DNA of 64,000 nt from Sphagnum magellanicum (Eukaryota > Streptophyta > Sphagnopsida > Sphagnales > Sphagnaceae): positions 10,074,146 to 10,138,145 of the forward strand of contig CM038921.1 in assembly GCA_021904315.1 (NCBI GenBank), written 5' to 3'. This document shows positions 9,578 to 64,000 of the stretch, one piece after another; position 1 is the first letter of the stretch; each line of letters starts with the position of its first letter. A model generated the notes under the pieces. The model had not been told where the DNA came from, searched no databases, and saw nothing but the letters and a program-made list of their open reading frames with translations. Position numbers and translations under genes: made by a program.

Positions 9578-10531
9578 CTAACTACAATCAACAAGCTTTG
9601 AACCAGGAAAGGAGAACAAAGTGCTTGCATTTGTGAAAACTGCATCTGCCAAAACTTCCTCAGTTACCTCCAGAAGTGATGCAACATGTGAGAGAATGGC
9701 ACGCAGATTTGCTGGTTGGTTCAAAGCTCCCTTTCCAATTCCTCCTCTTCCATTGCCTGCAGATTTGGAATGCAGTTCCTCTTCATGGCAGCAGTCGGAA
9801 TTTGAGGATGGAACTGCTGCTGTTACTGCTGGATCTCCTGGTACCCAAAAGAGTGCAGTGGGATCATCAACCTGAGGAAGAGCATCAGGGCAATCTGTTT
9901 CCAACAAGAGTCTGTCTCTTGGCACCTGCTGCCATACGCGTCGAGCTTTCTGTGGGTTCACATGTGTGTTGAATCCGGAGAAGGAGAAATACGCTCCGTG
10001 CTTGGCAAACACTTTCACAAACTCCGCAGAGCCTGAATAGGAATGGAGGATGATGCCTGCAGGGAAACTCCCCATCTCCTCTAGCAAACCTTGCAACGAT
10101 CCGAAAGCTCGTACACAATGGATAGCAGCCGGTCTCTCAAGTTCTCTCGCAAGCTTCAGTTGCTGTCGCAACACATCCACCTGAATGCTTTCTTCCACTT
10201 CTCTGCCTCTGATGCTTTGGCAGAGACCGATCTCTCCTACTGTGGAGCATGGAACGCTTTCGAGCATGCATCTGAGCTTGGACAACCAGTCTTTGGATCG
10301 CTGTGAAGCCCACCACGGATGCAAACCAAAACAAGGGATGATGCAGGAATTGTGCTCACTCATCTGTCGCACCTTCTCCCAGTCTGCTTCCGAGGTTCCA
10401 TTCACTGCCATCCACTTCACGCCTGCCTTTGTTGCTGCTTTGATCAAGCTCGGTGCTGTGTCGACTATTCTGTTGTCTTGTAAATGGCAGTGCACGTCGA
10501 AGAGCGGCGTCCTCGTTGTTGCCATAGCCAT
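9578..10531 (-). CDS. TatD-family metal-dependent hydrolase (deoxyribonuclease-like)
   Basis: One uninterrupted 317-aa frame with no intron. Family metal ligands are all present: His14 and His16 in DVHCHLQD, Glu100 in VGEIGL, His138 in AIHC, His163 in LHSYSG and Asp213 in ETDCPD. The later NQPANL motif (271-276) is also typical. TatD proteins are two-metal TIM-barrel hydrolases with 3'-5' exonuclease activity, linked to DNA repair and programmed DNA breakdown; the exact substrate in plants is uncertain. Between ETD..P and NQPANL there is an insertion of about 50 residues (roughly 222-270) rich in Ser, Gly and acidic residues compared with compact bacterial TatD. The ATG at 10531 has a good plant context (GCC before, G after). 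No signal or membrane segment is seen. Confidence 0.93.
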   Translation of the reverse strand: MAMATTRTPLFDVHCHLQDNRIVDTAPSLIKAATKAGVKWMAVNGTSEADWEKVRQMSEHNSCIIPCFGLHPWWASQRSKDWLSKLRCMLESVPCSTVGEIGLCQSIRGREVEESIQVDVLRQQLKLARELERPAAIHCVRAFGSLQGLLEEMGSFPAGIILHSYSGSAEFVKVFAKHGAYFSFSGFNTHVNPQKARRVWQQVPRDRLLLETDCPDALPQVDDPTALFWVPGDPAVTAAVPSSNSDCCHEEELHSKSAGNGRGGIGKGALNQPANLRAILSHVASLLEVTEEVLADAVFTNASTLFSFPGSKLVDCS

Positions 10532-15974: not shown

Positions 15975-16695
15975 ATAAGGCCTGCTTTACGCTAGAGTCA
16001 GGGCCGAAAAAAAACTGGAGTCCAACTTTGAGTGGCAGTTTTGGCTTGTTGTTTGGCCCCGAGTTACTAATAAATACTGGAACATTGGAGTTCTCCGCAA
16101 AGTAAGAAACACACAGCACCAGAACCCTGAGTTTGGTCATACACAGGGTGAGATTAAAAAAAAACCTGCAAAGAAGTACATTAGCATTCAACGGGGGATG
16201 AAACTCAGAAAACCATCAACTTTGGTGGTAAACTGAGTTTCATCCTGTCTTTCCTTTCTCTTCAGCAGCGCCTCCTCTGCTGCTACATATATTTTCACTG
16301 CTCCTAACTGTACAACTACTATAATTAGTCTCGAACCTTGTGGATCAAATGCTGAGTTTCAGCATTTCATACAGTTGCAGCATTTCATATTGAGATTTAA
16401 TAAAATGTCTTTACTTTGCGGATACCACTGAAAGACAGGATAGGGCCCAAAGACAGGGTGAAGACAGGGTTACTTTATAGACAACTCTATTGACTTCAGG
16501 ATATTAATAAATGCTGGAAGATTGGCCCCAAGGGTTCCAAAATTGGCTTCTCAAATTCGATGGAGTACTTTTTTTTTCAGCCTGGGGGCCAATACAAGGC
16601 CATCAAGTTCAGCATTCATTAGTAACTTGGGGCAGATTGAAAATATTTTTTCTATTTCAGCCTTGACTTGACTCCTAGTGTAAAGCCCTTGAGGC
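15975..16695. mobile_element. MITE-like element with long degenerate inverted ends
   Basis: The left end (about 15978-16085) and right end (about 16605-16693) are inverted copies. Left has GCTTTACGCTAGAGTC and later GAGTTACTAATAAATACTGG; the reverse complement of the right has GCTTTACACTAGGAGTC and AAGTTACTAATGAATGCTG. No transposase frame lies inside, so it would be non-autonomous. Borders and target duplication are not clear. A further GCTGGAAGATTGGC-type subrepeat near 16514 suggests internal duplication. Confidence 0.5.
16222..16487 (+). repeat. Left arm of 0.25-kb inverted repeat
   Basis: This arm pairs with 17710-17945 in reverse complement. Anchors are CTGAGTTTCATCC (16233-16245) against GGATGAAACTCAG (17921-17933), and the blocks CACTGCTCC, GTACAACTACTATAATTA and CCACTGAAAGA. 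The arms are imperfect and contain indels. The loop between them is about 1.2 kb. Confidence 0.8.
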
Positions 16696-17410: not shown

Positions 17411-17709
17411 TTGATTCAATGATGACAATGAGCAGCAGTGAAGAACTGGGGGTGAAAGTCCTGTAAGGCCCACTTTAGCTGAGAAAACTAGTTTGGTCCA
17501 GTCTTTTTCATGTGTATTATTTTCATCCTGACTTTTCATTTCGCCCCCAGTTTTTGCAAACCTGAGGCCTTGTAGCCCAGATTGTCAATACTTTACAGAT
17601 AACTCTAATATCTAGGGCCTTTACAGTGCAAATAAAGATGATGAAATCTTCCAGCAACCTGGAGAATCGGGTGTGGAAAACAATTGGGCTTTTCTATGGT
17701 TATATGATA

Positions 17710-17945
17710 AAGTTGTCCATAAAGTCATCCTCTTTTTCACCCCTTGTCCCCTCTTTCAGTGGTATCTGCAAAGTAAGAAAATTTTATTAAATCTCAGTAC
17801 GAAATGCTGAAACTCAGCATTTACTGCACAAGGTTCGATAGTAATTATAGTAGTTGTACAGGTAGGAGCAGTGAAAATATATGTAGCAGCAGTGGAGGCG
17901 CTCATGAAAAAGGAAAGAGGGGATGAAACTCAGTTTACCACCAAA
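17710..17945 (-). repeat. Right arm of 0.25-kb inverted repeat
   Basis: Reverse-complement partner of 16222-16487. Just outside it, near 17610, a CTAGGGCCTTTACAG patch resembles the end of the MITE-like element at 15975-16695, so this is probably a second, inverted and partly deleted copy of the same family. Confidence 0.75.
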
Positions 17946-18010
17946 ATAGGTGGGAAAATTAGTTTGGGTCAGTTATTTCGTGTTGTAAAATTTCATTCTC
18001 AATTATGCGG

Positions 18011-28347: not shown

Positions 28348-28655
28348 GTTGGCCAAGGCAAGGCTATCGCGTTTAGATTCATTATAGAGTATAGTAGCTT
28401 AATGGATTTTCGCCACTAGTTAATAGGTCTATTTTTATATGAGGATTTTTGAAAGATGATATTTTGGCTTGTGTTGAACCTTGAGATTAGTTATAGAGTT
28501 ATAATAAATCTTGTAGGATTTTGGTTTTGTTTTACAGGATTTTCTGAAGATTATATTTTTGGATGGTGAAATATTTGAGTTTCCATACTTCTTCTTTTGC
28601 CTTAAGATACTTTTTAATGTAAATGGCAAGGCCACAATGTGACACACCCCTTTTG
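28348..28655. repeat. LTR-like dispersed repeat, copy 2
   Basis: Direct-orientation partner of 552-900. Shared blocks include AGGATTTTTGAAAGATGATA, GATGGTGAAATATTTGAGTT and AAATGGCAAGGCCACAA. It lies about 0.9 kb upstream of the alpha-tubulin start. Confidence 0.6.
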
Positions 28656-29189
28656 TTTCTATTATTTAGTAGTCAATAATAGTTAGGTGATTTTATCAAT
28701 CACTTATCTATTTATCTTTAGTAATGTGTATTTTCAATGTAGGTATATTGCGACTCACTAAAGTTATTGGATTTTTATGGAATCTTGCTTGCGATCAAGA
28801 ACTCAGATGAGAAAAAGAAATAATGAAACACTTCTTTTTTTTCTTAATGAGAACTTTCAATGGACATTATTAAGTGCAATGAATTGGTCACCATTGCCAA
28901 AAATATTGTAATTTTGGCATAATTTTATCAAGTCAAAAATTCCATAAATGATCATCACCATTGTTGAACATGATTCCAAAAAAATTAAGATAATTATTTA
29001 GGCACCCGAGTGCAGGAACCATATGAGATAAGGTACTCTGGTAGTTATCAAACATCAAACAGGGGTACCCACTTTACCATTTGTTCAACCCCTTGGTAGG
29101 CCCCATGTAGGCCCTACAGTTGTAGGGCCTACAAGTGATTGGTAGGTGGGTATGTAGGTACGCCCTCTCCTACCCTACTCTCTGTCTGA

Positions 29190-46529: not shown

Positions 46530-47671
46530 TCATTTTCTATGTGTTCTATGTTGATCTTTTGTTTGATTATTTTGCTACAAAAACATATGGAGGGTGCAAA
46601 AAAATTCATGTGCTACCTTTTGTAATATGTTTCGTTCGTGTTCCCATGGTTCCTTGATTGGCATTCACCCATTCTTCATAAACAACTTCAAAATGGTTAT
46701 GAATTTCTTCCTAGTCCTTTGGTGGTTCATAATATGGTGGATTTGGAATTACCAAGCATGTACATGGGTCACCCATCTTATTACAAATTTTTCTCTTTCC
46801 TCCAACTCCATGCTTTCACTACCAAATGAACCTTAAAAATTTGAATGTCAAGAAGTTTGGAATTAGTATCCCTCCTTTTCTAGCACTTGTTGCCTCAAAT
46901 TTGGAGATGCGTGTTTTTTTTTATAGATTTTGGTTGTGAATTTGAAAAATTCTTTGAAGAATCTCCTTACCCAAAGTACCAATCTTAGTCATTGTAGCAC
47001 TTCATTGCTAATACAATTTGAATTTTTTTTGAAACATTTATCTTTGTTAAAATAGTCATGTACCCTTGCAAGTTTATCTTCTATTTATGACGTTTGTGAT
47101 TACACATGCATCGATGTTACAACCTCCATTTCTTCATGTTCACGACATACTTCCGTTGCTGGCACACACATTATTTTTGGATATTTATTCGTTGTTTGAT
47201 CCAATTGCTTCGCAAGATTCTTGTAATCATTCCGTTCACTTTTTCCTTCTCTAACCAAGATCCTATAATAGATTCCATTGTAGACCAAACCTTTACCGAA
47301 ACTATCCCACTTTGATTTAAATCCTTAAAAAAACTTAATCAATCAATAAGATAGATTTAAAAGAAAAACAAGAACATGAAATTTTCTTATAAAAAATATT
47401 TAGTAGATCACAGTAGAAGTTATAATATTATTTTATCATAAAAATATTACAGTAACAAGTACATATATTATAAAACTACAGATCATGCAACAAACCAAAC
47501 ACACATGTGCAAAATACTTCATTCAACATACAATCCATTTTTCTTCACAAATTTAAAATCTTGAAAAAAAATCACATTAAAAAAAAAACAAGTATGAAAT
47601 CAATCGTCAACAAAGCCCATGTCCAAGAATTCAAAATTAAGGAAGAAAATCACTAGGGTAAACCAGTTGGT

Positions 47672-48221
47672 GATCGAACATTTAAGCACTTAGGGCAGGC
47701 TAGATCCAAGGGGAGGGCTTTGTCGTTTCTAGTGTCCAAACAAAACTTGAACCCCTCATGTTGGTGCATCTAGTGCACTAAAAATTGTCAAAAACGAAAT
47801 AGAATTGAGAAAATTATTGCCCCCGAAAGTAGAGGGGGTCAAGAACTAAAAAAACCAAACCACCAAAACGTTACAAAGGCCGATTCCAGAACACCCAAAA
47901 AATTCCTTCCATGTTGCTCTGTTGCTATTCCAGTTCCAAGATGATTTGTAGAATTTCAAGTGATGCTCCTATAGCACTTTAAATCGTTTAAAATGAATAA
48001 GAAATCAGAATGTTATGAGGTTTGAAAGTAGGAGGGGTCAAAATGAAGAAAAAGAAGTTTTGCAATTTGAAAAAATGTATTTCCTTTACTGCTCTTTTTT
48101 GGCTGGTCCTTTGGCTTTGCATTTGAAAGATGATTGGTAAAGCTTGAGAAGGCACTCCTATAACAATTTAAATCACTCAAAATGGAGAAGAATTGAGAAA
48201 GATCTGCCAAAGTGTTCGATC
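47672..48221. mobile_element. Insertion unique to left outer arm, with ~190-bp internal tandem repeats
   Basis: Absent from the homologous right arm. Short inverted ends GATCGAACA (47672-47680) and TGTTCGATC (48213-48221) bound it. Inside, a unit begins near 47763, 47960 and 48152 (GTGATGCTCCTATAGCACTTT-type start, followed by AAAATGAA.AAGAA and a GAAAGTAG.GGGGTCAA block), period about 190-197 bp, with the third unit partial. No protein is encoded. Confidence 0.5.
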
Positions 48222-48378
48222 ATAGGCTGCCTTGGTGATGGGCCAGCATACCCTAACTACTTACTAACTATTCCTCCTTTAACACAATCATACAAGCATG
48301 TATATTGACCATACATTTTTTCAGGTGCTGAATTGATATAGCCCCTATACCCATTCATGCATCATTTATAGGGGTATT

Positions 48379-48381
<3 letters not shown>

Positions 48382-48418
<37 letters not shown>
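48382..48418. repeat. (TA)n microsatellite
   Basis: About 18 TA units just outside the left core arm, in DNA lacking from the right arm. Confidence 0.97.
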
Positions 48419-48420
<2 letters not shown>

Positions 48421-49184
48421 GTAAAATATGAAAACTCTTGTGACGCAATGGTTTTTTCTTTTTCTTTTTCAAATTTTTGATCTAGCTGAGGTAGCAGGCA
48501 TCCATAAGCTGTTGTAGCCAAATTTGGCTTTTACATAAATATGAAAGGAAAACTTTAAAAACATCCTTATACTTTTTGGTTAATAATTGCTTGAAACATG
48601 TATAGAAAGCTGGTGACTTTTGTAGATTGTTTTAATTCAATTTTTCGTGATTTACTTTCAAAAAAATCATTGAATTTTGTGACGCAAAGTCTCAAATTTT
48701 TTTGTTTTACGCGTGTGCAAAATGGTCGGCCCATGTGGTGACGGTCTACCCTGTCTGTCCATGGATTATTGGGCGGGTTCCGTAACCTGTTGTCGCTAGG
48801 ACCCCTGATGACCAGAGATCGGCCCTTGCCGAAGGAAACGCAGGACTGTGTATACGCGTTGTCTGGACTGCAGCCTGTATAGCTGCTGAGTCGTCTACAT
48901 AGATCGCATGCGTGTAATCTACACGTGGTGGACATCTCGTACCCTCGAATCACCATGTAATCAAAGTCAGCCCTTTCTCAGCCTCCGTGCAACCGCCGGC
49001 AAGTAACCGTACTAACGACCATGATCTACGATATTTTGTTTGAGACGGGCTAAACCCCTAAGAAGGCTAGTTTGTAAGAGGATCAAAATTTCAAGTTCAC
49101 CGTTTGATGTGGAGCGGACCTCACTTAAATACTACCCTGTGCATATTTAGGACTACGTCCCACAGTTTGTGCCCCTCCCATTAA

Positions 49185-49590
49185 TTGGCCCAGGCCAAAA
49201 ATGGTGAGAAACAGTTTTGGAAATTAAAGTTGTATGCAGCCAATGACAAGGCTCAGGATGCACTCAGCTTTTTGTATTTTGGGGTGGGAGGGGGGGGGGG
49301 TCCAGGGATTTTTTTTCCTCTTGTTCCCAATGTGTTCCCATCGTATTCACACGAGGCTCCCACCCGGTTCCCAGAGGGCTCCCCAAGTTCCCAATTTGTT
49401 CCCAACAGCACCTCAACTTTATCCCACACAAAGTTGCATTCCCATGTACACAAACTGAAAAGTTGGAGAGCACATTTGATTCTATATCTGGACTTGGGGT
49501 CCGAAGAGATGTTTCTACTGGGGAGTGCCCGATGTTCCAAAAGATTGGTGATGGGTCAATCAACCTGGCCCCTTCCAAAAAGATTTTGCC
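49185..49590 (+). repeat. R1 dispersed repeat, copy b
   Basis: Same block order as the copy at 37230: AAACAGTTTTGGAAATTAAA, repeated GTTCCCA words, AGCACCTCAACTTTATCCCA, then GGGAGTGCCCGATGTTCC and GGGTCAATCAACCTGGCCCC. It ends about 160 bp upstream of the germin TATA box, so the gene's distal promoter is element-derived or element-adjacent. Confidence 0.8.
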
Positions 49591-49749
49591 CTTTGTCTCA
49601 GTATGCCACTATCTCCTACAGCTTCTAGAGCCATCGGTTAGAATGGTCCATCACGGGATTGACAAGGACAGTAGACAATTGATTGAACGTGTACGCACTT
49701 TTCCACCTCCACCTTTGGCATCCCTTGTACGCCACCTTGGCCATCTCAC

Positions 49750-49756
49750 TATAAAT
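49750..49756 (+). promoter_or_regulatory. TATA box of germin-like gene (left copy)
   Basis: TATAAAT at 49750, about 200 bp before the chosen ATG, giving a leader of roughly 170 bp. A CAATTTGCAG acceptor-like site at about 49913-49922 leaves room for a leader intron, which I cannot confirm. Confidence 0.6.
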
Positions 49757-49952
49757 CCAAACTGCACACTCCTCCATTCCAACTGCAGAGCTCACCTGAC
49801 TCTTCTTCTTACACTGCCTTCCTTGCCTATCAGACCCCTTCGTCCTACACTAGTATTGCTGGCTCAATTGTTTTCTGCCTACCTGGGGTCAAGAATATTC
49901 ACTAACTTTGCTCAATTTGCAGCGGTCTCCCCAACAAGCATTCGTCAACGCG

Positions 49953-50639
49953 ATGGCTGGGAGCTTTTTAGCTCATGTTCGTCGTGTCACAGTGGCACTT
50001 TTTGTGTTGCAGCTAGCTCTCCTCCCCATGATGGCCATTGCATCAGATGCGGACCCAGAGCAAGACTTCTGTGTCGCCGATCCCAACAACCCCACCATCG
50101 TTAACGGTCTGGTCTGCAAGAACCCTGCCCTTGTGACCGGCACCGACTTCGCGTCCCCTCTCTTGGCCGCCCCTGGAAACACCAACAACCCCCTTGGAAG
50201 TAACGTCACAGGAGCATTTGCAGGAGCATTCCCGGGCATCAACACTTTGGGGATTTCCATGGCACGCCTGGACTTCGCTAAAGGAGGTCTCGTCCCACCC
50301 CACACACACCCTCGAGCCACTGAGATCATTTTCGTGGTGGAGGGTTCTTTGTTCGTCGGTTTCGTGAGCACCGATGAAAAACTTTATGCAACCACGTTGC
50401 AGCAGGGCGATGTGTTTGTGTTCCCGAGAGGTCTTTTGCACTTCGAGCTCAACGTGTGCGACGGTACTGCAACTGCAATTGCAGCCCTGAACAGCCAGAA
50501 CCCAGGTACGCAAATACAGGCAGTAGCGTTATTCAATTCCAACATCACCGAGGTGGTCTTGGAAAAAGCATTCGGATTGGGTGAAAAGGCAGTCCAAAAG
50601 ATCGAGTACGCAGTCGAAGCTGCTAATAAGAAAGCTTGA
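49953..50639 (+). CDS. Germin-like protein (cupin), left copy
   Basis: Single exon, 228 aa, the usual germin length. ATG 49953 (GCGATGGCT) has a strong plant context and starts a signal peptide (MAGSFLAHVRR, then a hydrophobic stretch to about residue 30); an in-frame TTG 45 bp upstream is not used. Germin box 1 is GGLVPPHTHPRATE (111-124) with His117, His119 and Glu124; box 2 is GDVFVFPRGLLHFELN (152-167) with His163, so all four Mn ligands are present. Cys40 and Cys55 can form the conserved disulfide; N84 (NVT) and N197 (NIT) are glycosylation sites. Germins are secreted hexameric apoplastic proteins; some are oxalate oxidases or superoxide dismutases. Activity cannot be predicted here. An identical protein is encoded on the opposite strand at 59011-59697. 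Confidence 0.96.
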   Translation: MAGSFLAHVRRVTVALFVLQLALLPMMAIASDADPEQDFCVADPNNPTIVNGLVCKNPALVTGTDFASPLLAAPGNTNNPLGSNVTGAFAGAFPGINTLGISMARLDFAKGGLVPPHTHPRATEIIFVVEGSLFVGFVSTDEKLYATTLQQGDVFVFPRGLLHFELNVCDGTATAIAALNSQNPGTQIQAVALFNSNITEVVLEKAFGLGEKAVQKIEYAVEAANKKA

Positions 50640-50706
50640 ATCAAAGGTCATATATATTCATACATACTTTATGTCTATAGATGTTGCATGAGATGAAACC
50701 TTTAAA

Positions 50707-51117
50707 TTATTCTTTAGGGCTGCCTATGGCACAGCAGCAAATTTTGTGCGGGGCATCAGATTCAGTATCCCACTTGACATGAAAGTGGTTGAGTTGGCCG
50801 TCATGCCATTCAATTCCCAATAAAGTTTTATCTTTTGTAATATTTCGTGGATGGTTACAAACCTTGTGTGCTTTGGCCATTAGCGCAACATGGATTGGTG
50901 TTGTGTCCCTGTAGAATGTTCCATGCATACGCGCAATTATGTCCTTTACGCAGGCATGTCCACTCACAAATGAAAGAGTAAATGTATGCTTCACTCCGTT
51001 GGAAGAAAAACATTTCTTATCCTTTTGGTTGCCATACTTGGGTTTCATGTATTGGAAGTTTACTTTTAATTGAGGATGGGGAATTGTTTTGAAATGTGGA
51101 CAAAAAGGTAATAACAT
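50707..51117 (-). CDS. Unidentified 136-aa open frame convergent with germin gene
   Basis: ATG at 51117, stop at 50707, only 67 bp beyond the germin stop on the opposite strand. The C-terminal 77 residues (from IARMHGTFYRDTTPI) lie inside the inverted-duplication arm; the first 59 residues lie outside it. Composition is protein-like (many His, Cys, Lys) and not low complexity, but I recognise no family. In the right arm (58712-58943) only the C-terminal part is present, joined by chance to an unrelated upstream frame. It may be a real exon cut by the duplication, or just an open frame. Confidence 0.3.
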   Translation of the reverse strand: MLLPFCPHFKTIPHPQLKVNFQYMKPKYGNQKDKKCFSSNGVKHTFTLSFVSGHACVKDIIARMHGTFYRDTTPIHVALMAKAHKVCNHPRNITKDKTLLGIEWHDGQLNHFHVKWDTESDAPHKICCCAIGSPKE

Positions 51118-52799
51118 GGAAGGATAATCTTGGAACTCGTGTAAATTCTAACATTTTGCAACTTTGATTTGTTGTTGATGGAATCTTTTTTACTTAACTT
51201 ATTGATAAGATTCTGCTTCTTGCAATTTATTTATATTATTTGCCTTTTACCCTAAGAGCAAGCAATATTTTTTCCAACTTTCTGATGTTGCATCATTGGC
51301 TAGCATCCCAAGAGGGATTTAGCATTAAATGCTAACAGGTTTTTAATCATGTCTAAGCAGTTTAAAAACTGGTCGTAAAAATGCTACCAAATTAAAATCA
51401 ACATCCAAATGTGGCAGAGGGTTTTCAATTTGACCATTTTTAGCAGAAAAAGGAATATTGCCACAAAATATTCCTGTTTCATTTTTCACATTTTGACAAA
51501 ATTTGGCACCAAAAGAACATAGCTTAGAGCAAGACTGTTACCTTGTACCCTTGGAAGCTACCTAGCTTGTGTTACCAGTTGTCATTTTAATGGTCACTAA
51601 CACGTGTGAGAAGGTTTCGTTTTGCTAAATTTCTATGTGGCAATCAAAGAGTTGATGTAGTCCACAAAATATTCTCAGGGAAGTGTTGGTTTCCGTTATA
51701 TATGGAGCTTTCGTCAAGCCTAGGTTCACATGTAGAATAATAGGCATCATGTGTAGGGGTCCATGTCATCTTCCAAATTTGATTAAAACCAAAAATGCCA
51801 CTCATGGACAAATGATGGCGTGAACTTGATGACAAAATAATTTCGTGTGGTGAAATTATAGACATCGACTAATATTATATTGTTGGTGTTTGGCTCTCTG
51901 ATGGTTTTCATAGACTCAAAGGCAATTTGTCCAATGCAAAGAATTTATGTAATATTTCTTAAATTGGTGATTGTCAAATTTTGAACATATGTTTTTTGCA
52001 ATCCTAATATTCTGAACACATTTATTTTGGCCAGACACAATTAACTAGGAGTTCAGCCAATGTCCATTACCTGTATAATGTGAGTTGGTCAAGCCACATG
52101 TTTCATAATTTAATGAAAAGTAAGTTTCCTCAACAGGATAGAACCCTGACCACAAAGGTCTTGCCCATGCAATAGGTAAGTTCTACAATCTGTTAAGAAT
52201 GACGCCCAACTTTGAAGCACCTACAAAAGAACACCCACAGTTTGGCACCTTGCTCATGATCAATATTGAACAATTTTTTTACACACCATATCACTTGCCA
52301 AACCCAAGGGTGCATCAAAGGGTAACCAAATTGTCAATTGAATTTACAAGTCATAATAAAATAAATGTCCATTTTTTTCCACGACCCACATTTGACTGTT
52401 TGACTTAGAAATAGATAGATAGTCTATAGCACATGAAGTCGAGTATATGAAATTTAAGCAGTAGGATCGTTTTGAGACTTTTGGTTTTGAAAGATTGGCT
52501 ATATTTGAAATTTTGGGTTGCCTATGGTAATATTGTGCATTAGTTGATTAAAAAGGTGAAGTATATCAAAATGAAAAGGTATATAATGTTATTCTTTCTT
52601 GGACCTTCAAGATCCTATCCATGATTCACAAAATATCATAAAGAAAATTATGTAAAATGCACAAGAAGCAAAAATATTATTAGTAAAATATCTCACACAA
52701 ATCAGTCTGAATAAGTCATTAAATTTTTTGGAATACATATATAAGCCATGAGACTGTTTGTTTACAAATCTATATGTAAAATTCAAGTACATACAAGCC
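50939..52799. other. Spacer DNA, no gene seen
   Basis: First part of the 7,773-bp spacer between the core arms. AT-rich, with no recognised gene or ordered repeat apart from the start of the open frame above. Confidence 0.5.
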
Positions 52800-53126
52800 A
52801 ATAAGTACCCCAGGTTGTAAGGGGGGCAATTAGCCTAGGTTCAAAACGGTGACAAACAATTTTGGAAATAGAAAGTTTATGTAGTGAATGAGAAGGCTCA
52901 ACATGCAGTTGGGGGTGGGCCTTAGCTTTTTTTTCTTTCAGGTTCAGGGGAGGGGGGTGTGGAATCTTTTGTTTTTTTTTGTCTCCTCCCAACATGTTCC
53001 CAATGTGGTCCCATCAAGTTCCCATCAACGTTCCCCAAGTTCCCAATGTGTTCCCTAGGACTTTCCCAATTACACCTCGATTTTATCTCACATTGTTTGG
53101 CCATAGTTCAACTTCCATGTATATTA
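52800..53126 (+). repeat. R1 dispersed repeat, copy c, left part
   Basis: Matches R1 from GACAAACAATTTTGGAAAT through GTTCCCAATGTG, GTTCCCCAAGTTCCCAATGT and CACCTCGATTTTATC, then stops at TTCCATGTATATTA (53126). The missing part resumes at 57453 after the Helitron block. Confidence 0.8.
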
Positions 53127-53217
53127 TCATATATTGTAAAGGATGTCGAGATGAAATGAAACTTTCCATCCATCCGTCCCGTCGTCCATCCGTCCATCCG
53201 TCCGGTCATCCATGCGA

Positions 53218-53425
53218 ATCCACACCCTGGAAGCTCTAAGGTTGCCGGTTGCACACCATCCCTCTACTGAGTTTGACACTGCAGCTTTCTTTCTGCCCAC
53301 CAAGAATGGGAAGGAAATAAACCAGGAATGGCCCTCCATCCATGTCCCTATTTAGATACATCATCATCCTTCATGTGTTGCTTGCTTGCTGGACGGTGCA
53401 TAAATAATCACCATGTATGATGAAT
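53218..53425 (+). repeat. Internal Helitron segment, copy 1
   Basis: Matches 55483-55790 in the same orientation (GGAAGCTC, CACACCATCCCTCTACTGA, CACCAAGAATGGGAAGGAAA, TTTAGATACATCATCATCC). It lacks about 100 bp present in the second copy (55569-55675). Confidence 0.9.
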
Positions 53426-53692
53426 AATTACATATATTAAAGGAAGGATGGCACCGACAATGGTCCTCGATACGGAGAGTGGACACTATGGCCCAACCGG
53501 CTGCGGGCGTGCGGAGAGAGAGAAAGTGTGTGTGTTCAAAGTAACTTCCCCTGACTCCGAACGGTACGGACAGTGGGAGACAGAGAGAGTGTGTGTTTGT
53601 TCAAAGGACCACAACCGGTGGTTCTTCGCCGGTTCTTTTAGGAAAGTAGCTAAATATAGCAGAATTCTGCTTTTCTGCCTTTTCTGCCAGCA

Positions 53693-53715
53693 GGGGGGGG
53701 GGGGGGGGGGGGGGG
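53693..53715 (+). repeat. Run of 23 G in a G-rich tract
   Basis: Twenty-three consecutive G at 53693-53715, followed to about 53768 by further G runs (GGGGGGGCACGGGCGGGG). It lies just upstream of an internal Helitron 3' end. Confidence 0.95.
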
Positions 53716-55482
53716 CCAAGCACGGGCGAAGGGGGGGCACGGGCGGGGAAGGATCGGGCGGGGGGGAGCTCGACGGGTGCATTATGCACCGGGTTCACAC
53801 ACACCTGTGCCTTAGGCACGGGGCACACACTAGTTATTACATATAGTAAAGGACGTCGTGGTCGTTTTTCGTGAAGCTTTCCATCCATCCACAAGCAGTG
53901 ACCCATCGCTCTATCTCTGTAGGTCATCCCAGGATTTGAAATCCCTGTAGAGGTTAGAACAAACCCCACAAAAACCTTGCTAGACTGGGTCATTCAAAAT
54001 GTGGAAAAGCATACATTGGAAATTTGATAGTTTTATTATTATGCATTTGTAGGTAATGTATTAATATATTATATGGGCTTTTGTTCTACTAAGAAATTAA
54101 ATATCATCAAAATAACCTTTCAATTGTAGATTAATGTTGTGAGGGCCATGAAATGAATTCCCTTCCAATATGGATGACCAAAATTACCAATTTAAAAAAA
54201 TAAAAATCACAATAACATCCAAACAAAAACTGTGTGAATAAAAATGGAAACAACACTACATTGCCAAACATATACCCACAAATAACCCTAAACCCTAAAC
54301 CCACACATTCAAAAAAATATTGTTTTTCAAGTTTCAAATAGCACCCCCCCCAAAAAAGAAAAATCGCCTTCAAGTTGCAACAAGACAAACTAGAATAAAA
54401 GTTTTTATACTTAATAATATACAAGTTTAAAAAAAGGATAAACACAAACATGAAAAGCAATTGAGGAGGAGAAAAAATGTGTCAAGGTGTGCTTTACAAA
54501 TTTAGAAACAAACTAAACAAAAACCAATAGAGGATGATGTCATGGACACCAACATCATTCAGCATCATTTTGTAATATGTACCGTCAAATACACACATCT
54601 GTGCATTAGGCACAGGGTTCAAACTAGTATATTGTAAAGGACGTCGGGATGAAATGAAGCTTTCCATCTATCCATCTCGTCCCGTCATCCATCCAAACAG
54701 AACAAATATATATTTTAAAAAGGGAAGAAACTAGGGAAAAAAAAACGGAAAAACACTTTAACAATTAGAAACTTTTTGTAAACACTTAAACATGAAAAAA
54801 AAAGGGAAATACAGTAAAATAATGTTAAAAGAAAATTAAAAAATAGATGACAAAAAATAAAAAATAAAACAGAGAGCAAAAGAAAGAGAAAAAAAACCAT
54901 ACTTGAAAAAAAAATGAGGTTTGTCTTCTTTTTCCAAACTTGAAACCTGCATTCAATCAAACAAATTTTTTTTTTAATTTAATTATTTTTTATTATAAAA
55001 CATATTAGAAAAACTAGAATTTTTTTGGAAAAGAAAATAGAAACTAAATAAATAAATAAACGCATAAAAATAGAAAACAAATGAAGATAGACAAAATAAG
55101 AATAGAAAAAACATGAAACAAACATAAACAAAAAAAAGTAAAAACACAAAAACTATAAAAAAAAAACAAATGAAACAAGGAAAGGGAAATACAGTGAAAT
55201 CATTTTGAAAGAAAAAAATTACAAAAAAGAAGAAACCAAATAAATAGTAGAAAATAAGAAAAAAATAAAACTTATAATAATGAAGAAAAACCCTACTTGA
55301 AAAAGAATGAGGTGTGTCTTCTCTCTCCAAACTTCAAACTTGCATCCAAATAAACAAAAATACAAAAATGAAAAAGAAACACTATATTTTTATTATATAA
55401 AATAATAATAAAAACAGAAAACACATAATAATAAAAAATTAAAAAAATAAAAGCTGTTTAAAAAAACTAAAAAACATGAACA

Positions 55483-55790
55483 CCCGGAAGCTCCGAGGTT
55501 GCCAGCTGCACACCATCCCTCTACTGAATCTGACACTGCAGCTTTCTGCCCACCAAGAATGGGAAGGAAATCTATCCATCATGCAATGCTCTCCCAGCTA
55601 GCTACTTCCCAAATGCCCAACTTGGTCGGTGAAATGGCCTCCAAGTTATGGCCGGTGAAATTTTTTTTTATAAAATAAACCAGGAATGGCCCTCCATCCA
55701 TGTCCCTATTTAGATACATCATCATCCTCCATGTGCGGCTTGCTTGCTTGCTGGACTGTGCATAAATAATCACCATGTATGATGAAATAT
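55483..55790 (+). repeat. Internal Helitron segment, copy 2
   Basis: Longer partner of 53218-53425, within the last member of the Helitron block. The DNA between this member's 5' end (54629) and this segment is an extremely A-rich ~780-bp stretch; the 81- and 115-codon minus-strand frames there are Phe-rich low-complexity artefacts. Confidence 0.85.
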
Positions 55791-57452
55791 TTACACATGA
55801 CCGCATGTAATGCGTTTTTTCGTTTTTTTTCGGTCAATCTTGTAATGCACCCAAAGTGGTGATGATCCACATGAATAATTAGCCATATAGTTAAAAAGTG
55901 CTGAAATCAATTAATTTTTAAATGTTTTCAATAGTCAGAATTTTTTTTAAAAAGGAAAAATGTCAGATTTCTGTCTATACATGGTTCAAGAATATTTTAG
56001 CCAAAAACATAAAATAACATGTTATGACAAGACAAAATGTGGCATAAATTTTGGTAATTTAATAAATAATACATTTTTTTATGAAGTGTCCAATATGCTT
56101 TTGATATCTATGTTGCATTGGTGCATTTGTCCGAATATGATCAATTTGTGTATGTTAATAATTAAATTCTTTAAAAAATCTAAATGTATTTGTTATAAAG
56201 GTATGTGTGTTTTGGCGATGAGAAGAAGCGTGTGACAGAAGCCAAGATTGGAGATGAAGCACTCGACAAAAGTGGAGCAACATACAAATGAGAGGGTGAA
56301 GTGTCTGTAGTTGATGTCTGAAGTTTCTTTTTTTCTTCCATTCTCCAGAACTAGCTAGCTAGCAAGCAAGCTTGAAGAAGCAAAGGTTTTCTTCAGAGAT
56401 GAGAACGTAGTAAGAAGATAGGCTCAATGATGATCAGACGTCAGACATTCGTCCGATCATCCATCCATCCCGTCATGGTCTGTTTATTCCCACCGAAAAT
56501 GGCTGACTCTGCCTGGAGGGCCTGTCATGTGTAGCATTTCAAGCATTTGCCTTTCCTGTTCTTCCTTTCTCCTCTCAATCAGGAAAAGTTTATGAAAAAA
56601 AACAGGAAAAAAAGAAAACATGTTTGTGATGGAAAAATAGAAAAAATACATATTACTTCTTCTTTTTTTTACCCTACAGCCTACCCTACCTAGACAATAT
56701 AACTGGTGGTTTGCAAGGTGAGTATTTGAAAACTGACCTTTATGCATAATTTATTATTTAAATAAAAACCCAAGTAAATTGATAACCAGGGGTATTACTT
56801 TGACAATGAAATTGTTAACTCATGAGTCTAAATTTTTCAAAAAGATTGATACCTTATGTGATCCAAATTTTTAAATGGCATTATTATTTACTATTTTTTC
56901 CCTCAAAATCATTTTTTTTTCAATTTTTCAATTTTTTAATTTCACTTTTCTGCGAATTTTTTCCAATAAATAAAAGGGCTGGGGATGACCATTCAGGCTC
57001 ACCTGGTGTTTAATTGAGACCCAATTGCACTTGCTGCTGATTTTGTCATTCTGCAACTACATCCCTACTCTTAATGTCAAGAAAGGGGTCCTCTATGGCC
57101 GGCCTACAAATTTGTCATGGGGCTTGACTCCTTACTTTTAATGCTAAGGATTAGGTCCTCTGTGGCAGATTCTGCCACTTAAGCCCTTGATGCCACTATT
57201 TTTACCAGAGAAATTTCGCTAAAAAGTGAAATGAAAAATTCAAAAATTCAAAAATGAAGTGATTTTGGAGGGTTTCAAAAGCCAAAAGTGAGGTGGAAAA
57301 TTAGTAAAAGATTGCCAGATTTCTACATTGGATTTTCAGTGCGTCACCATGAGCACAGACAGTTGTTTAAAAAATTTGTACTTCATATCTGGTTTTGTAA
57401 CATGTACCATCAAATACACACACCTGTGCATTAGGCACGGGGTTCAAACTAG

Positions 57453-57610
57453 TAAGTTGTAAATGGGGGCCCAAAGGGAAGCAGAACTATGTGTCTATTT
57501 GGGGAAGAAGTCTAGGCTTCTACATTGGGCAGTGCCCAATGATCCAAAATTATTGGCCATCAGCCAATGAATGTGGATCTTTCTCGGAAGAAAAAAACTT
57601 AACTATGCTT
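57453..57610 (+). repeat. R1 dispersed repeat, copy c, right part
   Basis: Continues R1 immediately after the Helitron end: TAAGTTGTAAATGGGGGCCC, then GCTTCTACATTGGGCAGTGCC and GCCAATGAATGTGG, in the order found in uninterrupted R1 copies. Confidence 0.75.
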
Positions 57611-58329
57611 CTCTTTTGGGGTGGGAAGCATTGTAGCCGAACAACGGGTGGCGGGACAGTGACTCCATGACTGTGCAGTTTGTGTGAACACAAAAACCTT
57701 GATCAGGGTAATCTGGCTGCCTCTATTGATGAGTGGCAGCGGATTTCTTCTTCATTAGTGTGAGAGGGAAATTAGATATGCATGGGGTGCATGGGAGAAG
57801 GGGGTCTGTATGTGTGGGATGGGAGGACAGGAAGATGACGGCGCGTTTGATGAAGAGGAGTGGCGCCACATTGATTAGGGATGGAAGAAAGCTTTTGGTG
57901 AGAAAAGCGAGGAGGAAGCTTGTGCAGGAAGCTGCATCCAAGGAGGTAGAGAAGAGGATAATCAGCTGGAGGTAGATCGGTGGGTTTTGGCAGAACAGCT
58001 AGGAGCTTAGGGAACTCTCGTTTGGTTGCTTTCTTTTTCCGTTGCGATTAGTGACCAGAGACATCTTTGGCTCCTTGATCTAAGAAAGTTTAGTGGGAAT
58101 TTAGGATGAAGGCAATCGATGTAGCAATTTTGGGAGGCAGGAGAATTGGTTCTGTACGAGACATTATGTGTAATAAGAGCTATGGAGTTTTGTCTTTGAA
58201 ATCTATTTCGCTTGAGTTGTGTGTTGCATAATTGTGAGATTGCATTGTGCTCGCTTTGTCAGAGCAAGGCAGTTTGAGAGAGGTTTGGTTATTGCTGTGT
58301 TTTCTCTGTTTCTCTAGATCCCTCCTTTT
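57611..58329 (+). other. Less AT-rich spacer DNA with unidentified frame
   Basis: Composition is richer than the surrounding spacer. A plus-strand frame 57733-57975 (80 codons, ATG at 57733, many Arg and Lys) has no family I recognise. It could be a gene fragment carried by an element or chance. No splice structure is proposed. Confidence 0.3.
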
Positions 58330-58440
58330 TTGGTTACAGCATGTCTACACTTCTCTGTTGAGCAATGCCCAATGTTCCAAAAATATTGGCGATGGGCCAA
58401 TCAATGTGGCTCCTTCTCAAAGAGAAAAGGAAGAACTCCA
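58330..58440 (+). repeat. R1 dispersed repeat, copy d, 3' part only
   Basis: Carries only the last ~110 bp of R1 (GAGCAATGCCCAATGTTCC, GATGGGCCAATCAATGTGGC). Confidence 0.7.
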
Positions 58441-59010
58441 GGGGTGCACCCCCCCATCCTAATTAATAATAGCACCACAAATAAGTACACCCCCTTTCAT
58501 GTGCCAGATAGGATGAATATTCAAGACAAGACTAAATATTCACCAATTGGGTAGGATAAAGAGCACTGGATACCAAACGTTTTTTCCTAACCAAGTTAGG
58601 CAACGTATTTTTAGCCCTCAATTTATTGGTAGTTTACCTAGGTAAAGATGGACTTACCCACCACATAGTAGTTTCCACCAGAGGTCCTCTTCTCTTTTCT
58701 TTATTCAAAGCAATTGCGCGTATGCATGGAACATTCTACAGGGACACAACACCAATCCATGTTGCGCTAATGGCCAAAGCACACAAGGTTTGTAACCATC
58801 CACGAAATATTACAAAAGATAAAACTTTATTGGGAATTGAATGGCATGACGGCCAACTCAACCACTTTCATGTCAAGTGGGATACTGAATCTGATGCCCC
58901 GCACAAAATTTGCTGCTGTGCCATAGGCAGCCCTAAAGAATAATTTAAAGGTTTCATCTCATGCAACATCTATAGACATAAAGTATGTATGAATATATAT
59001 GACCTTTGAT

Positions 59011-59697
59011 TCAAGCTTTCTTATTAGCAGCTTCGACTGCGTACTCGATCTTTTGGACTGCCTTTTCACCCAATCCGAATGCTTTTTCCAAGACCACCTC
59101 GGTGATGTTGGAATTGAATAACGCTACTGCCTGTATTTGCGTACCTGGGTTCTGGCTGTTCAGGGCTGCAATTGCAGTTGCAGTACCGTCGCACACGTTG
59201 AGCTCGAAGTGCAAAAGACCTCTCGGGAACACAAACACATCGCCCTGCTGCAACGTGGTTGCATAAAGTTTTTCATCGGTGCTCACGAAACCGACGAACA
59301 AAGAACCCTCCACCACGAAAATGATCTCAGTGGCTCGAGGGTGTGTGTGGGGTGGGACGAGACCTCCTTTAGCGAAGTCCAGGCGTGCCATGGAAATCCC
59401 CAAAGTGTTGATGCCCGGGAATGCTCCTGCAAATGCTCCTGTGACGTTACTTCCAAGGGGGTTGTTGGTGTTTCCAGGGGCGGCCAAGAGAGGGGACGCG
59501 AAGTCGGTGCCGGTCACAAGGGCAGGGTTCTTGCAGACCAGACCGTTAACGATGGTGGGGTTGTTGGGATCGGCGACACAGAAGTCTTGCTCTGGGTCCG
59601 CATCTGATGCAATGGCCATCATGGGGAGGAGAGCTAGCTGCAACACAAAAAGTGCCACTGTGACACGACGAACATGAGCTAAAAAGCTCCCAGCCAT
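59011..59697 (-). CDS. Germin-like protein (cupin), right copy
   Basis: Encodes a 228-aa protein identical to the left copy at 49953-50639, with the same signal peptide, His117/His119/Glu124/His163 ligand set and Cys40/Cys55 pair. No coding difference of any kind was found, synonymous included, which points to very recent copying or homogenisation. It is transcribed toward its twin, so the two genes are convergent across the spacer. The start was chosen as in the left copy. Its promoter is also identical, with the TATA box at 59894-59900. Confidence 0.96.
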   Translation of the reverse strand: MAGSFLAHVRRVTVALFVLQLALLPMMAIASDADPEQDFCVADPNNPTIVNGLVCKNPALVTGTDFASPLLAAPGNTNNPLGSNVTGAFAGAFPGINTLGISMARLDFAKGGLVPPHTHPRATEIIFVVEGSLFVGFVSTDEKLYATTLQQGDVFVFPRGLLHFELNVCDGTATAIAALNSQNPGTQIQAVALFNSNITEVVLEKAFGLGEKAVQKIEYAVEAANKKA

Positions 59698-59893
59698 CGC
59701 GTTGACGAATGCTTGTTGGGGAGACCGCTGCAAATTGAGCAAAGTTAGTGAATATTCTTGACCCCAGGTAGGCAGAAAACAATTGAGCCAGCAATACTAG
59801 TGTAGGACGAAGGGGTCTGATAGGCAAGGAAGGCAGTGTAAGAAGAAGAGTCAGGTGAGCTCTGCAGTTGGAATGGAGGAGTGTGCAGTTTGG

Positions 59894-59900
59894 ATTTATA
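59894..59900 (-). promoter_or_regulatory. TATA box of germin-like gene (right copy)
   Basis: Mirror of the TATAAAT at 49750-49756; identical sequence and spacing. Confidence 0.6.
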
Positions 59901-60059
59901 GTGAGATGGCCAAGGTGGCGTACAAGGGATGCCAAAGGTGGAGGTGGAAAAGTGCGTACACGTTCAATCAATTGTCTACTGTCCTTGTCAATCCCGTGAT
60001 GGACCATTCTAACCGATGGCTCTAGAAGCTGTAGGAGATAGTGGCATACTGAGACAAAG

Positions 60060-60465
60060 GGCAAAATCTTTTTGGAAGGGGCCAGGTTGATTGACCCATC
60101 ACCAATCTTTTGGAACATCGGGCACTCCCCAGTAGAAACATCTCTTCGGACCCCAAGTCCAGATATAGAATCAAATGTGCTCTCCAACTTTTCAGTTTGT
60201 GTACATGGGAATGCAACTTTGTGTGGGATAAAGTTGAGGTGCTGTTGGGAACAAATTGGGAACTTGGGGAGCCCTCTGGGAACCGGGTGGGAGCCTCGTG
60301 TGAATACGATGGGAACACATTGGGAACAAGAGAAAAAAAAATCCCTGGACCCCCCCCCCCTCCCACCCCAAAATACAAAAAGCTGAGTGCATCCTGAGCC
60401 TTGTCATTGGCTGCATACAACTTTAATTTCCAAAACTGTTTCTCACCATTTTTGGCCTGGGCCAA
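60060..60465 (-). repeat. R1 dispersed repeat, copy b' (in right arm)
   Basis: Inverted duplicate of copy b, differing at one base (60333). Confidence 0.8.
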
Positions 60466-61173
60466 TTAATGGGAGGGGCACAAACTGTGGGACGTAGTCC
60501 TAAATATGCACAGGGTAGTATTTAAGTGAGGTCCGCTCCACATCAAACGGTGAACTTGAAATTTTGATCCTCTTACAAACTAGCCTTCTTAGGGGTTTAG
60601 CCCGTCTCAAACAAAATGTCGTAGATCATGGTCGTTAGTACGGTTACTTGCCGGCGGTTGCACGGAGGCTGAGAAAGGGCTGACTTTGATTACATGGTGA
60701 TTCGAGGGTACGAGATGTCCACCACGTGTAGATTACACGCATGCGATCTATGTAGACGACTCAGCAGCTATACAGGCTGCAGTCCAGACAACGCGTATAC
60801 ACAGTCCTGCGTTTCCTTCGGCAAGGGCCGATCTCTGGTCATCAGGGGTCCTAGCGACAACAGGTTACGGAACCCGCCCAATAATCCATGGACAGACAGG
60901 GTAGACCGTCACCACATGGGCCGACCATTTTGCACACGCGTAAAACAAAAAAATTTGAGACTTTGCGTCACAAAATTCAATGATTTTTTTGAAAGTAAAT
61001 CACGAAAAATTGAATTAAAACAATCTACAAAAGTCACCAGCTTTCTATACATGTTTCAAGCAATTATTAACCAAAAAGTATAAGGATGTTTTTAAAGTTT
61101 TCCTTTCATATTTATGTAAAAGCCAAATTTGGCTACAACAGCTTATGGATGCCTGCTACCTCAGCTGGATCAA

Positions 61174-62430
61174 GGTATGGTCAACCTATGTGCTTGTATC
61201 ATTTTGTTAAAGGAGGAATAGTTAGTAGTTTGTAAGTAGTTGGTGATTTTCTCCTCTAATTTTGAATTCTTGGACATGAGTTTTATTGATAATTAATTCC
61301 ATTTTTTCTTTTGTGGAAATGTGATTTTTTTTAAAAATTCAGAACTTTTGAAGAAGAATGGATTCTATGTTGCACATGTGTGTATGGTTTGTACAAGATC
61401 TGCAATTTTATGGTACATGTATTTGTTAGTGCAAGATTTCTATGTTAAAATAGTATCGTAACTTCAAGAACTGGTGAAATGAAAGAATATATGTTACCAT
61501 TCGATGATTATTTTTGGGATGAACTCAACCAAGAATTGTAGTTTTTTTTAGGTTGTATTCTGATTTATTATTGTTTTCTATAAATAAATTGCATATTTTC
61601 TTCTAAATCTACATGTTATTGATTAATTAATTTTTTTAAAGGATTTAAATCTAAGGGGGATCATAGTTGTTGTGAAAGTTTGGTCTACAAGGGAATCTAT
61701 CGGGAGATCTTGGTTAGAGAAGGGGAAAATGAACATAATGATTATAAGATGCTTATGAATGCAATTAAATCAAGCAACGGATAGAGATCAATAAATAATG
61801 TTCCTCCCACCAACAAAAGTATGTTGTGAATAGCAATGTGCATGTAACCATAAAACCCACAAATGTCAAAAACAAAGGAAAAGCCTACAAGGTACATCAA
61901 TATTCTAATGAAGATAAATGTTTCAAAAGAAATTCAAACTATAGTAGCAATGAAGTAAAACTACAATGATTGAGATTGGAACTTTGGGAGGAAAAATTAC
62001 TTGAAGAATTTATGGGATTCACAACAAAACATGTATTTCCAAATTTGAGTCAACAAGTGCTAGAAGGGGAGGGATAGGGATTTTTAACCCTTCAACAATC
62101 AAATTTTGAGGGTTCATTTAATAGTCAAAGCATGGAGTTGGAGAAAGAATAAGTATCTGCAACAAGATGGGTGGCCCATGTACATGCTTGGCAATCCAAG
62201 ATTCCACCATACTATGAACCACCAAATAGTGGGAAGAAATTCATAACTATTGCAAAGTTGTTTAATGAATAATGGGTGAATGCCAATCAAGTAGTGGAAT
62301 CGCTAGTACCATACTTTGTTGGAACAATTCAAAGACTATAATTACTCAAATGAAACAAATTATAAAACGTAGTGCATCAACTGTTTGCACCAACTCCACA
62401 TGTCTTTGTAAACGAATAATTGGTGACAAA
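61174..62430 (+). repeat. Outer, diverged arm of the inverted duplication (right)
   Basis: Partner of 46530-48476 read in reverse complement, about 75-80% alike by eye. Coding-like remnants run on +, including VYKGIYREILVREGENEHND near 61681 and SATRWVAHVHAWQSKI near 62157, with stops in places. The left arm has the same remnants on -. The source element or gene is not recognised. Confidence 0.85.
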
Positions 62431-64000
62431 AGCATAAACTATGGACAATGGTATGGAACGTATGAACTAGGGAATGATGATTTTCATTGGTTAACAAGGA
62501 TGGTGAATGGACAACCATTACATCGACAGATCCATGTGCCAAATTGAATACCTAGGTTTTCACTGTCCATTAAGTGCAGATACTATCAATAGAAAAAACA
62601 TGTTATGGATGAATGCCTTTACATTGATGATCCATTATGTTAAGGAATAATATAACATGTATTTGATGAATTCACATATCAATCTATATCAGCATATTTA
62701 ATTATTGATAATGTCATATCTATACCCATGAAAACGATGGAGGCCATGTGTGTGGAAGCATGGGTGTAAACCAATCTTCTAATTACAGTTAGATTACCTT
62801 TATGGACATATCACTTCTTATAGCACAAATGTAGGTTCTTATTGTTCCAATAAAATCAACCAATGTGGTTATGGATAACCTTTATGTTAATACTACGAGA
62901 GGAATAATTTGAGGTGCATCTCCATGGCCCCGAGGTTGTTAAAATGGCATGACATGCCCAATTTGGGTTCGTTGTCATGTCAACATCCATTCAAACACAT
63001 CAGTTTTGTTTATCAGGACAAACGTTGACCAATTTTTTTGGTTTAGACTAGTTCTACAATCAAAATTATTTGAATGTCCAAATTTTGAATCATTAAATTA
63101 GGCAACCAAAAAAATTCAATCACCAAATCAAGTGGCCAAAATTTTCAATCGTTTCAATCGACAATGGTTCGATCTCCACCATTGATGTACAAGTGAGCAA
63201 TCACTACTTGAAAAATTTGATCACTGCTTTAAAACTTCAACCACCAACTTAAGCAACCAAAAACGTTCCTTCATCAAATTGAATGATTGAAAATTTTCAA
63301 TCATTGGATGGACAATGGTTAAATCTCCACAATTGATTTAACATTAAAAAAATTTAATTGTTGGCCAAAAACATTTTATTCATTACATGAAATTTTTTTG
63401 ATCACTACCGGAATTTTTTCCATCACCCCAAAATGAACTTTTGATTGCCACAAGGTTTAAGTTGGTTAAATGATGTGATTGTCAACTCCCTTAACTTTCC
63501 CCCAAATAGCCCAACATCACTTTGACCTATGGTTGGCCCTATTTTAACATGGTTGGGTGAAAGCATGGTAAAGTATACACAAAAAGTAGTGTAAGCAACA
63601 AAATATTGGGGTCCCTAAAGAAAAGGACAAACAAGTAGATGATTTATGGGGATAATAAATAAAAATTTGAGTGCATTATTTTTTAACTCTTGTTTGCATG
63701 GACTTCAAAAGTTAAATTATTATAATCATGTTTTTTAAAGCTACTTGCAAGTACTTGAATTGGACCTAAAATTTATGGCAGTTTGAAAAATAAAGTTCAA
63801 GTACTTGAAAGTAAGTGAAATGTTTTTGCAAGTATTTGGTTTTTTTTTCAAGCACCTTAATATTGATGTGGTGAAGATTCTAATATATATTTTTTGGTTA
63901 ATCCAGCTTGCTTTCATAACTAAAATCATCCCCAACCCTTAAAAAATGGGGGATACTTTTGGGGTACTTTTTCAAATCCAAATGACGACACAAATTACTT
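62431..64000. other. AT-rich intergenic DNA to window end
   Basis: No gene seen apart from the tandem repeat listed separately. Confidence 0.5.
63060..63370. repeat. ~152-bp tandem repeat, two units
   Basis: AAAATTTTCAATC begins at 63138 and 63290 and GACAATGGTT at 63160 and 63311; both are followed by (A/G)ATCTCCAC.ATTGAT. Units are diverged and a third may be partly present on either side. Confidence 0.75.

Follow-up and report, generated by a model that had tools for sequence, protein, structure and literature searches.

How can a palindrome be almost identical at its centre and old at its edges, when centre and edges lie in one collinear register? The question is raised by a palindrome unit, here called W, in a stretch of 64,000 nucleotides of Sphagnum magellanicum chromosome C15 (C15:10074146-10138145; hereafter the window, in which all coordinates given without a chromosome are positions). 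Each inverted arm of W carries a germin-like gene. A preliminary description of the window had offered two models: break-induced replication that began in pre-existing inverted repeats and copied the germin-like segment, or an inverted duplication of old date that gene conversion keeps identical at its centre. We compared W with its sister units in the genome (438,994,042 bases on 31 contigs, with 18,169,471 bases in C15). W very probably descends from an old inverted duplication, and its centre appears to have been kept alike by gene conversion from arm to arm.

Self-BLAST aligned the left arm (48477-50938, forward strand) with the right arm (58712-61173, reverse strand) without a gap over 2462 bp; the arms differ at three places (arm positions 7, 556 and 841), which bears out the near-identical inverted core of the preliminary description. 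Outside the arms, the inverted collinear match continued between left flank A (46552-47652, forward strand) and right flank B (61174-64000, forward strand), the homology of the latter extending beyond the window end. One block matched at 75.8% (46653-47367 against 62291-61596, E = 1e-139) and a second at 75.2% (47416-47653 against 61465-61243, E = 5e-42); upon realignment the two flanks were unlike in 230 of 1038 columns (22.2%). Diverged collinear flanks had been described there and were recovered, over about 1.0 kb rather than the more than 1.2 kb first given. The divergence profile was a step and not a slope: counted in blocks of 100 aligned bases, mismatches numbered 0-1 within the arm (60612-61111), 8 in the block spanning the arm edge, and 18-30 in all blocks further out.

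An excess of about 0.7 kb on the left, also noted before, proved real and measured 754 bp, as 47654-48476 (823 bp) stands opposite 61174-61242 (69 bp). Its bulk is a dispersed repeat of about 600 bp (47651-48255), found in the left flank only, which has at least 33 other places at 80-85% identity among those scored and whose ends, judged by eye, resemble CACTA-type termini. The remainder (48256-48476) opens with a short stretch that looks by eye like 61174-61242 and continues as a TA-rich insert with a (TA)18.5 tract at 48382-48418.

The arm sequence gave at least 58 matches in the genome, from the best 40 of 1338 candidates scored. Both arms were compared in 14 two-armed units on several chromosomes, named here by contig and position in Mb (c19_5.58 and so on). 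Type 1 units, W among them, are flanked by A and B or by x and B, and those of type 2 by P and T; the remaining two units, on C17, are more distant. One-armed or broken places (c19_6.85, c19_5.535, c15_13.1, c15_7.445, c16_7.40, the C14 copies and one on C11) were kept out of the 14. Five arms from outside this set entered the arm tree (c19_6.85, c15_13.1, c16_7.40 and two on C14); c15_7.445 did not enter the search for nearest arms, and no arm tree included c19_5.535. The spacer and inner arm parts of c15_7.445 are gone, and a second arm was not found at c15_13.1, losses that would match the expectation for unstable palindromes. A place on C11 (L011, C11:17707171-17710206) has a B flank with just 197 bp of arm matched and is probably the remnant of a unit.

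The A/core and B/core junctions are identical in position across the type 1 units that hold them, and in type 2 units an insert of 1.2 kb interrupts the T flank, about 23 bp beyond the arm. The preliminary description had allowed that the outer sequence might be so abundant as to sit beside the core by chance. Chance placement is not borne out: most of the B-flank places listed abut a copy of the same core or lie within about 1.3 kb of one; those away from it are C15:14475569 (22 kb off), C14:532637 and C17:12796673, and C14:478421 is reversed.

Flanks and arms gave contrasting trees. Flanks grouped by side irrespective of unit, with support of 1.0 for A (five flanks, on C3, C15 and C19), B (six) and T (nine) and of 0.999 for P (ten). 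Divergence was 3.6-6.8% among A flanks and 1.3-3.0% among B flanks, compared with 21-23% between A and B, and was 7-12% between P and T. The arms, in contrast, were closest within their own unit, among all arms compared, in 6 of 14 units, namely W (3/2462 differences), c3_20.06 (20/2518), c4_5.25 (0/2500), c3_23.78 (16/2502), c16_7.2 (7/2405) and c15_14.4 (2/2148). In all 11 units for which two flanks as well as both arms were measured, including c15_14.4, whose second flank sits 22 kb off, within-unit divergence was 7.8-23.3% for the flanks and 0-3.3% for the arms. Across the 14 units, arms ranged from identical to 3.9% apart and were more than 99% alike in eight. The left arm of W differs from other type 1 arms at 43-88 sites in about 2450.

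Site patterns were counted across the eight arms of W, c3_20.06, c19_5.64 and c19_5.58, with the left flank of c19_5.58, which is x, scored as the A side. Fifty-nine sites followed the whole unit, 1 followed the side, 18 were singletons and 9 were mixed; at the flank rate, about 545 left-right arm differences would be expected without conversion. The single side-specific site seems to be arm position 7, just inside the edge and beyond the reach of conversion; this position differs within W, c3_20.06, c19_5.64, c19_5.58 and c19_6.78. Because flanks follow side, arms follow unit in 6 of 14 units and the sites stand at 59 to 1, the inverted duplication would predate the spread of the type 1 units and the arms would have been homogenised later. 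The same results, W included, back the second model of the preliminary description.

The placement of mismatches within units is also consistent with conversion. In c3_23.78 all 16 are confined to the outermost 321 bp of the arm, leaving none in the remaining 2.1 kb, and in c16_7.2 the outermost 194 bp contain 6 of 7; those of c17_12.77 form two main clusters. Such clusters look like the ends of conversion tracts. The 20 differences in c3_20.06 are dispersed, and the three in W are too few to judge. The arms further show a lean towards GC, counted from changes that the other unit type could polarise, with unpolarisable fixed differences between types excluded. The ratio of AT-to-GC to GC-to-AT rates was 1.49 in the non-coding arm (133/1782 versus 70/1402), 0.69 in the spacer and 0.31 in the flank (core versus spacer, all polarised changes, p = 0.0013). 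GC content is 45.7% in the non-coding arm, 30.5% in flank A and 32.1% in flank B. GC-biased conversion in the arms is plausible from these figures, and methylation differences could lie behind part of the lean.

Several observations weigh against conversion within units as a full account. The arms of c19_5.58 and c19_5.64, with 1 and 10 within-unit differences, form one joint four-arm cluster, and six units showed no pairing of their arms at all: c19_6.78 (81/2451 differences), c15_7.36, c15_7.387 and c15_7.46 (42-53), c17_12.73 (51/1326) and c17_12.77 (35/1340). The last of these pairs by unit in a 13-unit tree without c17_12.73 and ceases to do so once c17_12.73 is added, taking the count from 7/13 to 6/14. 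Each of the eight units not closest to themselves has, among the places viewed, a further copy no more than about 110 kb away on its own chromosome, and the right arm of c19_6.78 has 4 differences to a lone arm 60 kb off compared with 81 to its own partner. Controls on the GC lean were mixed: with CpG contexts removed the core ratio dropped to 1.05, which still exceeds that of the spacer (p = 0.0073) and of the flank (p = 1e-9), and with transversions alone the same two comparisons gave p = 0.023 and p = 0.11. In addition, all comparison was made within one species and from assembled sequence.

For the six pairing units, by contrast, the places viewed include no second copy nearer than about 110 kb. 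Clusters lie at C15:7.36-7.47 Mb, C17:12.73-12.78 Mb, C19:5.5-5.65 Mb and C19:6.78-6.85 Mb, and the difference between clustered and isolated units suggests that neighbouring units may also exchange arms. Two arms on C19 (6788814-6791311 and 6850570-6853080), 60 kb apart, face outward and differ at 4 sites, although one of them is part of a unit with 81 differences between its own arms.

The spacer of W (50939-58711, forward strand), which we divided into S1 (50939-52884), S2 (52885-56257) and S3 (56258-58707), occurs among the units in both orientations. S1 adjoins A in W and c19_5.64 and adjoins B in c19_5.58, c3_20.06 and c19_6.78; among type 2 units it adjoins P in c4_5.25 and c3_23.78 and lies away from P in c15_7.387, c15_7.46 and c15_14.4. 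A hand parsimony count on the spacer tree, covering these 10 units and excluding the spacers of c15_7.36 and c16_7.2, gave at least four flips, at least two per type. The flips would be explained by crossovers between the arms, because a crossover between inverted arms inverts the segment between them.

The units c19_5.58 and c19_5.64, 60 kb apart, carry spacer pieces with 0/1936 and 0/1369 differences in opposite orientation. Their left arms have 0/2511 mismatches and one gap, while their B flanks differ by 17/1264 (1.34%) and their left flanks by 182/827 (22%). Two histories would account for this: the arms served to copy an entire cassette from one unit to the other, or a unit was duplicated and a flank then replaced. 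More generally, arm, spacer and arm might form an exchangeable cassette that is swapped either way round between flanks, within and between chromosomes, and so spreads and renews germin-like genes. The lack of arm pairing in clustered units fits this idea, which we put forward tentatively and think rather unlikely.

Returning to arm-to-arm conversion, we propose the following course. An old inverted duplication would have set two convergent germin-like genes in mirror-image surroundings before the type 1 units spread. Pairing of the arms, on one chromatid or across sister chromatids, may then lead to recombination. Where repair proceeds without a crossover, one arm would be copied onto the other, leaving arms near-identical while isolated units drift from other units; crossovers would invert the spacer, and units lying close together would also trade arms with each other. 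Copying would halt at the outer arm edge, where an insertion in one flank of each pair may break homology, the dispersed repeat and TA tract on the A side and the 1.2-kb insert on the type 2 T side. Beyond that edge the flanks would be free to diverge. For dating, a substitution rate of 9.4e-9 per site per year was used for moss. The rate of Populus tremula, 2.5e-9 per site per year (PMC7023750), was also used for ages. By these figures, which give orders of magnitude only, the W arms were last reset 0.07-0.24 million years ago and the A and B flanks split 14-53 million years ago.

The alternative that fares best is that the core of each unit comes from its own recent copying event, by break-induced replication or template switching in old inverted repeats, and not from recurring conversion. 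This too would yield a young core in old flanks, and for any single event break-induced copying is possible, as it amounts to one long conversion tract. However, the A/core and B/core junctions common to type 1 units mean that both arms predate the spread, and the within-unit differences are graded, sometimes clustered, and not all-or-nothing. One break-induced copying event, the other model of the preliminary description, could explain a single unit but does not predict shared junctions together with unit-specific arm identity. We regard separate copying events as quite improbable.

It is very improbable that the units are a transposon bounded by long terminal inverted repeats which captured a germin-like gene, the arms being matched through transposition. 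Their number and spread (14 or more two-armed units, on several chromosomes), their inverted ends and the lack of a Pfam domain in the middle give them the look of such an element. Homology nevertheless runs past the arms into flanks common to units, for kilobases on the B side, and on the A side it stops at different places in different units. The Pfam search, of nine open reading frames from the spacer, the flanks and the spacer/arm edge, found no domain. We rejected this candidate on the sequence shared beyond the arms in type 1 units, on the varying A-side ends and on the lack of a Pfam match in those nine frames; whole-unit target-site duplications were not searched for.

An artefact of assembly or polishing, in which the consensus of one arm was laid over the other, would be in keeping with the published Sphagnum assembly having been built from PacBio continuous long reads (PMC9946827), and we assume that polishing might erase a few arm differences. 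Against it stand the diverged flanks, on which the preliminary description had already called an assembly hairpin improbable, and with which we agree. Arm differences are moreover graded from 0 to 81, the difference at arm position 7 recurs in several units and spacers have opposite orientations, all of which make an artefact highly improbable.

The two genes of W are single open frames of 228 amino acids (49953-50639, forward strand; 59011-59697, reverse strand) that point toward each other and have 0 differences. The product matches Pfam Cupin_1 (7.5e-45), and its closest solved structures are of oxalate oxidase 1 (E = 3e-43), the barley germin. Both germin boxes were matched in their usual pattern. 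With this domain and the two boxes, the product is, by its sequence, a germin-like protein (cupin). A protein search of the genome gave 38 matches of at least 84% identity among those listed, which by hand count comprise 14 neighbouring opposite-strand pairs, all 14 convergent, and 10 singles. Purifying selection alone, for which it speaks that all 38 are stop-free in the matched part, can be given almost no weight as the cause of arm likeness and was rejected, since it is contradicted by the unit-wise arm pattern, by about 1.5 kb of identical arm upstream of the gene, by the distance of the left arm of W from other type 1 arms, and by a mean ratio of nonsynonymous to synonymous substitution (dN/dS) of 0.42-0.88 across four comparison groups.

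Inverted pairs, here placed head to head, are formed as well by another germin-like subfamily of more distant relation (17 pairs no more than about 16 kb apart, by hand count among the listed matches), on C5, C12, C6, C4, C15 (15.79 Mb), C11 (17.63 Mb) and C25. Two of its pairs, over 408 nucleotides each, have 0 and 0 differences within and 1 between, a length too short to conclude from.

Flip-flop isomers are familiar from the plastid inverted repeat and the 2-micron plasmid, in which recombination of the two inverted copies turns the intervening segment round. The same inversion would occur in the moss units, but here the flips are read from paralogous nuclear units and not from isomers within one plant. 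C15 is far larger than the Sphagnum sex chromosome and is probably an autosome. Palindrome gene conversion, according to PMC7023750, is best known from sex chromosomes. Mammalian X and Y palindromes are described as near-identical gene-bearing inverted arms with gene conversion and GC-biased change (PMC8981503), and the moss arms share the first feature, very probably the second, and show a lean towards GC for which the controls were mixed. They differ in having arms of 2.5 kb on an 18.2-Mb chromosome, many dispersed units, and a spacer that lies both ways. On the Salix purpurea W chromosome, two consecutive sex-linked palindromes over 200 kb show conversion in parts of the arms (PMC7023750); these too are plant palindromes with gene conversion, whereas the moss set consists of small, dispersed units. 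In Physcomitrella, where homologous recombination is reported to be highly frequent (PMC3045890), the similarity of neighbours in tandemly arrayed genes was explained by gene conversion (Lang 2008, as cited in PMC3045890). That case likewise concerns conversion among similar neighbouring genes in a moss, but the Sphagnum pairs are inverted, their flanks serve as an internal control, and their spacers flip.

At the level of titles and abstracts, the literature on germin-like genes, moss, palindromes, inverted repeats and autosomal conversion yielded no account of such a system, and the main text of PMC9946827 contains neither the string 'palindrom' nor the string 'gene conversion'. Sex-chromosome palindromes already illustrate the principle, which has also been proposed for moss arrays; what is new is the dispersed small palindromes, the flank control and the cassettes lying both ways. 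In this single genome the same palindrome occurs many times over; its diverged flanks can act as an internal clock, what look like tract ends are visible, and the spacer is seen in either orientation. Tract length, GC bias, tract stops, the frequency of crossover flips, and exchange within versus between units could thus become measurable by comparison in moss.

Other repeats were seen in and near the window. After the B flank lies a tandem array with a period of about 237 bp, estimated from BLAST offsets, at about C15:10138800-10140800, and such an array also stands beside c19_5.64. Within the window there are a direct repeat pair (564-890 and 28353-28658, 86%) and an inverted repeat pair (16213-16490 and 17707-17953, 78%). 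Finally, an open frame of 317 amino acids on the reverse strand (9578-10531) has the look, by eye, of a TatD-type metal-dependent hydrolase.

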